IMG/VR virus record: IMGVR_UViG_3300027969_000476
Location: 1 to 20,992 of that record
Origin: a virus
Reading direction: 5' to 3' (one strand)
Length of the DNA stretch: 20,992 bases
The notes under the pieces were generated by a model. The model saw only the letters and a list, made by a program, of their open reading frames with translations, ran no database searches and had not been told where the DNA came from. The position numbers and the translations under genes are program-made. Positions 10,842 through 16,381 of this stretch are shown one piece after another; position 1 is the stretch's first letter, and each line of letters begins with the position of its first letter.

Positions 10842-11020
10842 ATAATTTAATACAAGAAGGTGAAGACCAACTCAAACATTATAAAGAAACAAAAGAATCT
10901 TTTTTATCTGACCCAAACATACCAGAGAAGTTAAAAGAAGCCTATATTGGTTTAGGTGAAGCTTTAAAACCGATGCTAGAGTTATTATATAAAGAAAAAA
11001 ATAGAAAACAAAATGAATAA
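10829..11020 (+). CDS. Unknown 63-aa helical protein before thyA
   Basis: A small all-helical charged protein (NLIQEGEDQLKHYKETKESF..., ending in NRKQNE) with no recognised domain. It overlaps the thyA start by 8 nt, so thyA is probably translated by ribosomes leaving this gene. Nothing ties it to nucleotide metabolism except this position. Confidence 0.7.
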   Translation: MGFIDNLIQEGEDQLKHYKETKESFLSDPNIPEKLKEAYIGLGEALKPMLELLYKEKNRKQNE

Positions 11021-12113
11021 ATTAGATAAACAATATACAGACCTACTTCAAGATATTCTTGATAACGGCACCCCTAAATCTGACCGTACTGGTACAGGAA
11101 CAATCTCAGTATTCGGAAGACAAATCAGACATAAAATGTCAGAAGGTTTCCCATTACTTACGACCAAGAAGATGCCATTTAAAACAATTGTAACAGAACT
11201 ACTTTGGTTCTTACGAGGTGATACCAATATTAAGTTTTTAGTTGATAATAATTGTCACATTTGGGATGGAGACGCTTATAAACGATATGAAAATAGTTAT
11301 GCTGCTTGGGTTGGAAATTCTTCGTGGTCAAATAATGCTGAGCCTTGGGATATGGAAAACTTTATTCGACTAATAAAAGAAGACGAGAGGTTTTGTTCCA
11401 TATTTGGTGAGTTAGGTCCAATTTACGGAGCACAATGGAGAAATTGGGATGGTTATCATAATGCAATTGGTGAAGATAATAGATTCATAAAAAATATGAA
11501 TGGTATAGACCAAATCCAAAACCTAATCAATGACCTTAAAGCGAATCCAGACAGTAGAAGATTGATGGTTAATGCTTGGAATGTTGGAGAATTAGACCAA
11601 ATGGTTCTTCCACCTTGTCATTATGGATTTCAAGTTTATACAAGAGAGTTGAGTGAAGATGAGAGATATAATCTACTTTCAGATAATGAAAAGAAAAGTT
11701 TTATAGTTGCAACCAACCCTGAAGTAAAATATGGTGAAGAAGTAAAATATACATTAGACACATTCTATAAACATATACCAACCAGAGCAATATCTTTAAT
11801 GTGGAATCAACGTTCAGTAGATACAGGATTGGGTTGGAGTTTCAATATAGCGTCTTATTCATTACTTTTAATTATGTTAGCAAAACAAGTTAATATGATT
11901 CCGGATGAAATAATATGTAATTTAGGTGATGTTCATCTTTATTCAAATCATATTGAACCAATTAAAGAACAATTAGGTAGAGAACCATTTCCACTACCAA
12001 ATGTTACATTATCAGATAGAATTGTTAATGATATTTCTGAATATACTTTAGAAGATATTAGATTGGAAAATTACCAATCTCATCCAACCATAAAGTTACC
12101 ACTATCTAATTAA
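11013..12113 (+). CDS. thyA: Thymidylate synthase ThyA
   Basis: This 366-aa ThyA methylates dUMP to dTMP using methylene-tetrahydrofolate, supplying dTTP for phage DNA synthesis. Landmarks are the RTGTGT loop (25-30), the LLWFLRGDTNIKFL segment (63-76), IYGAQWRNW (137-145), RRLMVNAWN (182-190), the catalytic Cys202 in PPCHYGFQ, NQRSVDTGLGWSFNIASY (265-282) and DVHLYSNH (306-313). It is about 100 residues longer than E. coli ThyA because of an insertion between residues 90 and 170 and a second insertion (about 211-255) just after the catalytic Cys strand. Extra segments of this kind occur in other phage and bacterial ThyA. The gene is intact. A homing endonuclease lies directly downstream instead of inside an intron. 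Confidence 0.96.
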   Translation: MNKLDKQYTDLLQDILDNGTPKSDRTGTGTISVFGRQIRHKMSEGFPLLTTKKMPFKTIVTELLWFLRGDTNIKFLVDNNCHIWDGDAYKRYENSYAAWVGNSSWSNNAEPWDMENFIRLIKEDERFCSIFGELGPIYGAQWRNWDGYHNAIGEDNRFIKNMNGIDQIQNLINDLKANPDSRRLMVNAWNVGELDQMVLPPCHYGFQVYTRELSEDERYNLLSDNEKKSFIVATNPEVKYGEEVKYTLDTFYKHIPTRAISLMWNQRSVDTGLGWSFNIASYSLLLIMLAKQVNMIPDEIICNLGDVHLYSNHIEPIKEQLGREPFPLPNVTLSDRIVNDISEYTLEDIRLENYQSHPTIKLPLSN

Positions 12114-12118
12114 TTTTT

Positions 12119-12174
12119 AGGACTACCCTTTAACTTTTAACATTTTAATGATATTTATATTAAAAGGTAGTCCT
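12119..12174 (+). promoter_or_regulatory. Hairpin hiding the homing-endonuclease start region, with a promoter motif in its loop
   Basis: AGGACTACCCTTTAA (12119-12133) and TTAAAAGGTAGTCCT (12160-12174) are inverted repeats of 15 bases with one mismatch. The right arm ends at the base before the ATG and contains the only AGG-type ribosome-binding sequence. RNA reading through from thyA would fold and block translation. TATTTATA (12152-12159) is in the loop, so RNA starting there lacks the left arm and is free to be translated. No T-run follows, so it is not a terminator. Confidence 0.72.
12152..12158 (+). promoter_or_regulatory. TATTTAT motif, candidate phage promoter element
   Basis: It lies in the hairpin loop, 16 nt before the ATG at 12175, in the place where T4 has a late promoter for I-TevI. 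Confidence 0.55.
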
Positions 12175-12909
12175 ATGATTGGTATTTATAAAATTACAAA
12201 TAAGAATAACGGTAAATCATATTTTGGTTCATCAAAGAATATTGAAACCCGATGGTTAACTCATAAAAATCAATTAAAAAATGGTATACACCATAATATA
12301 TATTTACAAAGAACTTGGGATAAGTATGGTGAAGACATTTTTGTTTTTGAGATTGTTGAAGAATGTGATATAAATATTTTACTTGAAACCGAGCAGAAGT
12401 ATTTAGATTCTAATCCGGAATATAATATTGGGTTAACCGCTAGCGGTGGTGATAATATTAGTAAAAATCCAAATAAAAAGGACATTATTAGTAGAATAAC
12501 TAAATCGGTTAAAGATAGGTATGATTCTATGACTGATGATGAAAAAAAAATGAAACATTCTCAACCTATGGAACAAAACCCAAATTGGAGAGGTGGTACA
12601 AGTTTCAAATATTGTGAATGTGGTAATAGAATAGGTTATGGTAACATTTGTTGTAGTAAGTGTAGACCAAGAACTGAAAGTAATAATCCTTTTTACGGAA
12701 AAAACCATACAGAAGAAACTAAAAATAATTTAAGAGAAAAAAGATTGGGTGTTTATAACGGAAACCAAAATATCCCAATAATAATTGATAATGTTGAATA
12801 TAGGTCTTCAGGTGAAGCCTCAAAGATACTTAATATCCCAATGGTTACAATTCGTTGGAGGGTTAGAAGTAATAATAAAAAATTTAATAATTACCAATAT
12901 AAAGAATAA
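12175..12909 (+). CDS. GIY-YIG homing endonuclease with NUMOD modules
   Basis: A 244-aa I-TevI/Seg-like homing endonuclease that would cut a specific DNA site and spread its own gene. The GIY-YIG nuclease domain (1-90) has GIYKIT (3-8), NGKSYFG (12-18, YFG in place of YIG), Arg26 and acidic residues at 63-73 for the catalytic Glu. Next come a likely zinc finger (C147-x-C149...C159-C160-x2-C163), a NUMOD3-like motif (NPFYGKNHTEETKNNL, 171-186) and a NUMOD1-like DNA-binding end (VEYRSSGEASKILNI..TIRWRV, 207-230). The start at 12175 was chosen over 12148 because GIY follows at once and the hairpin abuts it. It is free-standing, 61 nt after thyA. Insertion beside thyA matches the habit of such genes to settle next to nucleotide-metabolism genes. 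Confidence 0.93.
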   Translation: MIGIYKITNKNNGKSYFGSSKNIETRWLTHKNQLKNGIHHNIYLQRTWDKYGEDIFVFEIVEECDINILLETEQKYLDSNPEYNIGLTASGGDNISKNPNKKDIISRITKSVKDRYDSMTDDEKKMKHSQPMEQNPNWRGGTSFKYCECGNRIGYGNICCSKCRPRTESNNPFYGKNHTEETKNNLREKRLGVYNGNQNIPIIIDNVEYRSSGEASKILNIPMVTIRWRVRSNNKKFNNYQYKE

Positions 12910-12914
12910 AAAAT

Positions 12915-13094
12915 ATGGAACAAAATATAAGAAAATATACCCACGAAGAAAGAACAGAATTGTTAAAACAAGCGATGGGGGAAGAAAGATATAATAAAGC
13001 GGTCGATGAGTTAATGCCGTTTGGTGGTGGTATGAGTGAATATTACGACTTTTATAAAATACCTTATAACGTAATAGAACCTTTAAGCAATTAA
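12915..13094 (+). CDS. Unknown 59-aa protein
   Basis: ATG at 12915, 5 nt after the endonuclease stop, opens a 59-codon frame (MEQNIRKYTHEERTELLKQ...EPLSN). It has an acidic/basic amphipathic helix, a Gly-rich turn (PFGGGMSEYYD) and no known domain. It ends 2 nt before the next ATG, and codon use resembles the neighbours, so it is likely real. Confidence 0.62.
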   Translation: MEQNIRKYTHEERTELLKQAMGEERYNKAVDELMPFGGGMSEYYDFYKIPYNVIEPLSN

Positions 13095-13096
13095 AA

Positions 13097-13333
13097 ATGT
13101 TAATTCATATTCAGACACAGGAATTAGAAAAAGAGTTTATAAATCCGGTTAAAAATGGGTTTGTGTCTCATCCGGCAATTGATTACCAAACAAATGCCAT
13201 CCACGCACAATACGAAGGAAACGATGTTATCATCTTTAACTTCAAAAAGTATGGATGGTTAAACGATAACAGATTTAACACCTACAACCTATCATTAGGT
13301 TCAGCAGGTATAACAATTGAAATATTATTATGA
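13097..13333 (+). CDS. Unknown 78-aa beta-rich protein
   Basis: A soluble protein with several strand-like segments (MLIHIQTQELEKEFI, DVIIFNFKKYGW, LGSAGITIEILL). No domain is recognised. Its stop overlaps the ATG of the YgiT-like gene by 4 nt (ATGA), so the pair is translationally coupled. The pairing with an antitoxin-like domain makes a two-gene module conceivable, but the protein shows no toxin-family motif. Confidence 0.75.
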   Translation: MLIHIQTQELEKEFINPVKNGFVSHPAIDYQTNAIHAQYEGNDVIIFNFKKYGWLNDNRFNTYNLSLGSAGITIEILL

Positions 13334-15848: not shown

Positions 15849-16258
15849 ACTTCTAAATCAAAGATTAAGTTTTTACCAGCAAGTGGGTGATTTGCGTCTA
15901 ATGTTACGGTTTCTTCATTTACCGCAACAACTTGAACGTTAACCGGTCCTTGTGGTCCCATTCCTTGTAAAGATTCTCCTACTTGAATACCTTCAGGTAC
16001 GTTTGTTTTTGGAACTTCACTGATAAATTCAGGTTTTGGTTCTCCGTAAGCATCTTCCACTGAAATTTCAACAGTTTTTTTATCTCCTTCAGACATATCA
16101 ATTAATCCGGCCTCAAATCCTTTAATAAGTTGACCTAAACCTAACTCAACATCTAACGGCTCACGACCTTCCGCAATTGATGTATCGAAAATTGTTCCAT
16201 CTTCTAATCTCCCTGTGTAATGTACTTTTACTTTACTTGTTGTTTCTACTTTTTTCAT
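15833..16258 (-). CDS. slyD-like: SlyD-like FKBP-type peptidyl-prolyl isomerase
   Basis: A 141-aa FKBP of the SlyD type, which speeds cis/trans isomerisation of Xaa-Pro bonds and acts as a folding chaperone. It shows the FKBP start (VKVHYTGRLEDGTIFDTS, 10-27), the LIKGFEAGL helix (44-52), the inserted IF chaperone domain (about 68-122, DAYGEP...) and the closing NHPLAGKNLIFDLEV (123-137). The C-terminal His-rich metal tail of E. coli SlyD is absent. It is cytoplasmic. A phage copy could help fold virion or replication proteins. It has no TATTTAT motif; the promoter must lie in the 123-base divergent gap upstream. Confidence 0.93.
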   Translation of the reverse strand: MKKVETTSKVKVHYTGRLEDGTIFDTSIAEGREPLDVELGLGQLIKGFEAGLIDMSEGDKKTVEISVEDAYGEPKPEFISEVPKTNVPEGIQVGESLQGMGPQGPVNVQVVAVNEETVTLDANHPLAGKNLIFDLEVVSIS

Positions 16259-16381
16259 AAAATTAAATGTTTTTGATAATTATAAGATTAATAAAAATAA
16301 AAATCAAACCTTGTTGATTAAAAAACTAATTATTCTTATAATTATAATTAATAATTAACCCCTTAAAACCTTTATAACTAT

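Follow-up and report, generated by a model that had tools for sequence, protein, structure and literature searches.

The Locus Downstream of thyA

The window, by which we mean the whole stretch of DNA that was analyzed, is a virus fragment of 20,992 nt in which a thymidylate synthase gene (thyA) is followed by a gene for a GIY-YIG homing endonuclease and by a short open reading frame. The features of this region, together with the evidence for each of them, are the following.

11013–12113, plus strand: thyA, complete, stop codon included (Pfam Thymidylat_synt, 5e-97; open reading frame)
11808–11812, plus strand: CAACG, a CNNNG cleavage motif in thyA spaced exactly as in T4, 21 nt ahead of the Leu codon (sequence; present in 42 of 44 thyA genes that lack the endonuclease gene)
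11829–11846, plus strand: homing-site core of thyA, encoding L-G-W-S-F-N (TTGGGTTGGAGTTTCAAT) in place of L-G-L-P-F-N (contrast between alleles with and without the endonuclease gene)
12117–12134, plus strand: putative operator, a non-coding mimic of the thyA homing site (match to endonuclease-less thyA; likeness to T4 and Melville operators; no CNNNG)
12118–12133, plus strand: left arm of the hairpin (inverted-repeat search, conservation, covariation)
12152–12159, plus strand: TATTTATA, late-promoter-like motif in the loop (position in leaders; enrichment before immuto late genes)
12160–12175, plus strand: right arm of the hairpin, over the region just 5' of the start codon and the A of ATG (inverted repeat, covariation, start accessibility)
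12175–12909, plus strand: free-standing homing endonuclease, 244 aa (Pfam, phmmer)
12915–13094, plus strand: 59-aa open reading frame, remnant of the native thyA 3' end downstream of the inserted cassette (ThyA similarity; empty site in L062)

The endonuclease comprises a GIY-YIG domain (aa 2–78), an I-TevI zinc finger (145–175), a NUMOD3 motif (170–186), and a C-terminal HTH-like region. Pfam models PF01541, PF22635, and PF07460 matched above their cut-offs, and phmmer comparison with the I-TevI chains gave e values of 1.2e-12 (1i3j/1t2t) and 1.8e-10 (1mk0), these chains being the catalytic and DNA-binding domains of I-TevI whose structures are solved. By its domain architecture the protein is an I-TevI-type GIY-YIG homing endonuclease. 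It is not located inside a group I intron of td, as thyA is complete, uninterrupted, and upstream of the endonuclease gene; the intron location defines I-TevI itself and not the protein type. We rejected a group I intron remnant because there was no Rfam match in the window and six relatives. Among named relatives, Flavobacterium phage immuto comes closest at thyA, with 71% DNA identity; it has no endonuclease there, and its genome encodes T4-like gp20 and gp23. The host of the window phage is one that we infer from such relatives, and a phage collection contained no isolate with a member of the endonuclease family at 60% protein identity or more.

A Hairpin over the Endonuclease Start Is Conserved with the Gene

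The leader of the endonuclease gene contains an inverted repeat of 16 nt with one mismatch, formed by 12118–12133 (TAGGACTACCCTTTAA) and 12160–12175 (TTAAAAGGTAGTCCTA) around a 26-nt spacer. The last base of its right arm is the A of the start codon, ATG 12175, and TATTTATA (12152–12159) lies between the arms, in the loop. A previous sequence-only reading had reported a 15-base repeat with one mismatch that ends exactly at this ATG and encloses a late-type motif; the end point, the mismatch count, and the enclosed motif are all borne out, and only the length is corrected to 16 nt, so the hairpin observation is real. Inverted repeats this good, with arms within 60 nt, occur at only two places in the window. 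A second strong inverted repeat, of at least 16 nt with one mismatch, is found at 16276–16345, in the intergenic stretch that separates the genes at 16258 (minus strand) and 16382 (plus strand). Among 60 dinucleotide shuffles of the window the mean number of comparable repeats was 0.22, and seven of the 60 had at least one. By itself the leader repeat is unusual and not decisive; the decisive evidence is its conservation.

Our searches yielded 127 loci at which the endonuclease matched well, with 57 distinct leaders, and dozens of viral contigs have the hairpin ahead of this same I-TevI-type endonuclease. Across 25 distinct leaders 94.5% of the stem cells pair, and the paired share falls to 28–54% when the stem register is slid. 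In the same 25 leaders the stem cells changed on both sides number 10 versus 2.9 in shuffles (none of 500 as high), and further pair types in the stem number 9 versus 5.9. The variant stems include GGACTACC/GGTAGTCC as well as GGATTACC/GGTAATCC in L087 and GGGTTACC/GGTAACCC in L241. Because the G-U pairs found at several stem positions keep an RNA stem and break DNA symmetry, the stem appears to act as RNA.

In relatives whose endonuclease genes are 70–74% identical in DNA sequence, the arms are 81–100% identical and GATATTTATA 80–100%, with only 62–75% identity in the 5' half of the loop. The leader is unchanged in L007 and L008, where thyA differs, and in L010–L016, which have a divergent thymidylate synthase variant upstream, identity resumes at TTTTTAGG. 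These comparisons indicate that the hairpin travels together with the endonuclease gene. The exact right arm followed by ATG is present in 48 viral contigs, mostly in leaders of the endonuclease gene; we considered solo hairpins without the gene and rejected them, as the few right-arm matches elsewhere have no left arm and look like chance. A search of genome contigs for cellular relatives returned one distant match only.

In divergent members of the family, for example L230, L133, and L100, the start is not hidden. A sister clade of endonucleases of about 314 aa (L212, L117, L215–L217, L223, L227–L229, and L067) has a second C-terminal DNA-binding repeat. Its hairpin is formed by other bases. 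Its operator core reads LGLEFN or LGIPYN, which together with the extra repeat suggests changed or longer target recognition. Other GIY-YIG endonucleases (L017–L019, L023, and L036) are preceded by a typical intrinsic terminator and a conserved TTTACC...TATATATAG, with no start-hiding hairpin.

Start Accessibility and a Late-Type Promoter Motif in the Loop

Folding predictions that include 75 nt upstream rank the endonuclease start last in accessibility among the 42 starts of the window (mean unpaired probability 0.11, compared with a median of 0.53). The start is opened in predicted folds of an RNA that begins 5 nt past TATTTATA, and the same is seen in nearly all relatives. The hairpin is thus predicted to hide the start in RNA initiated upstream, as expected of I-TevI-like leader control. 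An in-frame ATG at 12148 was rejected as the start since the L008 family has a TAG stop there; ATG 12175 is conserved.

TATTTAT is located 20–23 nt 5' of the ATG in 54 of the 57 distinct leaders, compared with 2.2 expected from shuffled leaders, and is absent from the other three. In immuto the same motif is found 15–60 nt upstream of 17 of 60 late-block genes versus 10 of 164 other (early) genes and about 1 in 60 random positions; gp20, terL, tail sheath, hub, and PhoH are among the genes that it precedes. On the opposite strand TATTTATA reads TATAAATA, which is the T4 late consensus, and only three of the 60 immuto late genes have TATAAATA in that opposite orientation versus 17 with forward TATTTAT. 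We therefore rejected a minus-strand TATAAATA acting as an antisense promoter, because the forward motif is the orientation enriched before immuto late genes, and it is these gene data on which the orientation assigned to the motif in the leader would rest. Taken together, the position in leaders and the enrichment support a late-type promoter in the hairpin loop and make TATTTATA a strong candidate for the late promoter of immuto-type T4-like Flavobacterium phages (L251–L253, the immuto genome). The sequence-only reading had proposed that read-through RNA folds over the start, that RNA started in the loop escapes the block, and that TATTTAT is a late-type promoter; the covarying stem and the predicted lowest accessibility agree with its first proposal, the predicted opening with its second, and the leader and immuto data with its third.

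By T4 promoter geometry, transcription would start at about 12165, which leaves the predicted late transcript with a very short 5' leader of about 10 nt. Such a leader would be odd unless the phage tolerates near-leaderless mRNA.

The Left Arm Resembles the Homing Site in thyA

As triplets, the left arm reads TTA GGA CTA CCC TTT AAC, which spells L-G-L-P-F-N. In thymidylate synthase, LGLPFN marks the insertion site of the T4 td intron, and I-TevI acts around this motif. When left arms were scanned along 44 thyA genes that lack the endonuclease gene, the best match fell at LGLPFN (13.7 of 21 versus a background of 5.9, sd 0.69). Distinct left arms differ mostly at codon-degenerate positions although they are untranslated, and relatives retain the arm even where their upstream genes differ. 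The CNNNG motif at the exact T4 spacing is present in 42 of 44 thyA genes without and 26 of 39 with the endonuclease gene, and in none of 42 leader operators. A homing-site-like sequence that adjoins the promoter and has no CNNNG is what characterizes the operator of I-TevI, and we consider the left arm a putative operator. This role, which in our interpretation of the sequences is the main point, was overlooked by the sequence-only reading.

The putative operator shares its core TAGGACT with the td endonucleases of T4, Melville, and Bobb, and the codon pair GGACTA occurs in 24 of 30 operators versus none of 34 local targets. Because GGACTA is found in operators and not in local targets, the operator seems to descend from an I-TevI-like ancestor and not to be a fresh copy of the local thyA. 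Where convergent or inherited control had been left as alternatives, the shared core and the distribution of GGACTA thus favor inheritance.

The operators of L242, L245, and L237, whose endonuclease genes lie next to the divergent thymidylate synthase variant, have cores LGWYIS/FGGYFN that are unlike the thyA motif LGLPFN and not clearly like the AGYIN of the variant. We examined whether operators located beside the divergent thymidylate synthase variant (L010–L016, L213, L235, L237, and L242) track that variant and rejected the idea: the variant has no LGLPFN whether or not the endonuclease gene is present, so its carriers are simply non-targets.

Altered thyA Alleles and a Probable Footprint of Homing

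The window thyA encodes GLGWSFN at the homing-site core, an allele that is presumed from its sequence to be cleavage-resistant. Among metagenomic contigs, which share ancestry, intact FLG[LIM]P[FYW]N is encoded by none of 39 thyA genes that carry the endonuclease gene next to them and by 35 of 44 that do not (Fisher 2.4e-15). Carriage labels are scattered in a ThyA tree based on the portion that precedes the motif, with 24 changes of which at least nine are forced by supported branches. Nine independent pairs can be drawn on the tree, and the target allele is opposite to carriage in about seven of these and the same in none (p about 0.016). An exception to target loss is Salmonella phage SP01, in which a related free-standing endonuclease gene lies next to a thyA with intact FLGLPFN.

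The putative cut site is 367 nt upstream of the endonuclease start. The endonuclease-less L062 represents an empty site in which the thyA stop codon is followed by AA and then by the ATG of the gene that starts at 13097 in the window. The product of 12915–13094 is 73–85% identical over 55 residues to internal or C-terminal ThyA of L007, L084, and L062; this open reading frame stops at the native thyA stop and marks the right border of the co-converted tract. In L087, L211, L214, L235, L238, and L241 the endonuclease frame runs into a thyA tail, ENYQSHPTIKAPLSN, and both genes end in the same peptide, a fusion that represents a recombination junction inside the gene pair. The thyA remnant, the empty site, and the tail fusions are the footprint expected of homing and co-conversion from a cut inside thyA. 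In addition, the gene lies between conserved genes and is absent in relatives, its putative site lies hundreds of base pairs away, and thyA is altered in 39 of 39 carriers, which argues for a free-standing homing endonuclease.

Proposed Control of the Endonuclease and Alternative Explanations

We propose, with a probability of roughly 0.78, that the 60-nt leader controls a mobile, free-standing endonuclease of the I-TevI type, which targets the LGLPFN codons of thyA. The proposal draws on patterns in the compared sequences, namely the covarying hairpin, the motif position and its association with late genes, the mimicry, the missing cut motif, the resistant alleles, and the empty site; late timing, the translation block, protein binding and repression, and actual cleavage are what we infer. 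In RNA that reads through from thyA, 12118–12133 would pair with 12160–12175 and hide the start codon, and no endonuclease would be made early. Late in infection the phage late polymerase would start just 3' of TATTTATA, at the predicted position near 12165, and this RNA, which does not contain the left arm, would be translatable. As DNA, the left arm would serve as an operator that mimics the homing site, and the endonuclease would bind it via its zinc finger/HTH part and repress the late promoter; the operator would stay uncut because CNNNG is missing at the right distance. The endonuclease is thus probably made only late in infection and probably limits its own expression. The cassette would spread by cutting endonuclease-less thyA and bringing along the resistant thyA 3' half. 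The I-TevI-like control logic suggested before is upheld in that the hairpin over the start, the late-type motif in the loop, and the I-TevI-type protein are each supported by comparative sequence.

Whether both roles of the arm are needed is the question raised by the strongest alternative, in which the repeat is a translational silencer only and the likeness of its left arm to thyA is an insertion leftover with no operator function. Covariation does show that an RNA stem is selected, and a history of repair leaves thyA fragments around the cassette, but the left arm is kept beside different upstream genes, its variation falls mainly at synonymous codon positions, its core recurs in T4, Melville, and Bobb, and CNNNG is absent from all 42 operators and present in targets; we regard this alternative as unlikely. 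The converse, that a dimeric regulator binds the repeat as a palindromic DNA site and that RNA folding is incidental, would fit the high conservation of the arms and the operator-like behavior of the left one. It is considerably less probable still, as the G-U pairs in the stem break DNA symmetry and the end of the right arm always falls on the start codon. Moreover, I-TevI-type proteins bind asymmetric sites as monomers.

The location of the hairpin 4 nt past the thyA stop codon could also point to a terminator or stabilizer at the 3' end of thyA mRNA. There is no U run after the stem, which was not listed by a terminator scan, and the hairpin moves with the endonuclease gene to a different upstream gene (the thymidylate synthase variant of L010–L016) and is not downstream of thyA in the endonuclease-less L062, so that we give this possibility very little weight. 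Least probable of all is a chance inverted repeat in AT-rich DNA: shuffled windows hold a comparable one about 1 time in 8, but conservation and covariation in 25 distinct leaders, always ahead of the same endonuclease, speak against chance, and the covariation already refutes it.

Returning to the proposed control region, we somewhat favor the further view that one 16-nt sequence does two jobs, as a DNA operator that copies the target and as an RNA arm that silences the gene's own start codon. The whole would then be a self-contained and portable cassette for late expression, one that has left the td intron and moves among phages whose late regulation is T4-like. An arm that has to resemble the target and also pair with the start region would link the evolution of the target to autorepression and to the silencing of translation.

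Implications and Comparison with Known Systems

We found no literature on such control in Flavobacterium or Bacteroidetes phages, and these results would extend the classic control of T4 I-TevI to phages related to a Flavobacterium phage. They suggest that operator, late promoter, and start-hiding hairpin move as one unit with the endonuclease, without an intron. The dozens of variants constitute a natural experiment for comparing operator, hairpin partner, and target, TATTTATA is offered as a candidate late-promoter motif for immuto-type phages, and homing would explain the altered active-site motif in the thyA of carriers.

As described in excerpts of the review PMC2988022, the T4 I-TevI gene has a start-sequestering structure, a late promoter, and a homing-site-like operator without CNNNG, and I-TevI binds this operator over its own late promoter, represses itself, and cuts there inefficiently because CXXXG is missing. 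The window resembles this system in protein architecture, in the putative LGLPFN-codon homing site, in the TAGGACT operator core, in the adjoining candidate late promoter, in the hairpin over the start region, and in the operator without CNNNG; the T4 I-TevI leader carries TAGGACTTGCCCTTTAAT and that of Melville TAGGACTACCATTTAAT. All the ingredients are therefore known from T4, and the difference lies in the wiring, the intron-free cassette, and the presumed protection by a changed thyA. The T4 hairpin has the late promoter as its left arm, with the operator immediately 5' of this promoter and overlapping it, whereas in the window the left arm is the putative operator and the promoter motif is in the loop. 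The endonuclease of the window is free-standing and intron-less, its target would be protected by an altered thyA and not by an intron, and its late motif is TATTTATA rather than of the TATAAATA type.

The td-intron endonuclease of Salmonella phage Melville has a leader with TAGGACTACCATTTAA, identical to the left arm of L008 and L010, but is intron-encoded with a hairpin built as in T4. The T5-like Salmonella phage SP01 (L258) encodes a related GIY-YIG protein (40%) directly after thymidylate synthase; there the gene overlaps the stop codon of td and has neither an operator-like arm nor a hairpin, and td keeps FLGLPFN. Aeromonas phage Aeh1 mobE and T4 segB are free-standing homing endonuclease genes that, according to the excerpts of PMC2988022, have a start-sequestering RNA structure and a late promoter, and for which those excerpts describe no homing-site operator doubling as a hairpin arm. 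MobE is an HNH enzyme in nrdA, and neither mobE nor segB is linked to thyA, unlike the endonuclease gene of the window.
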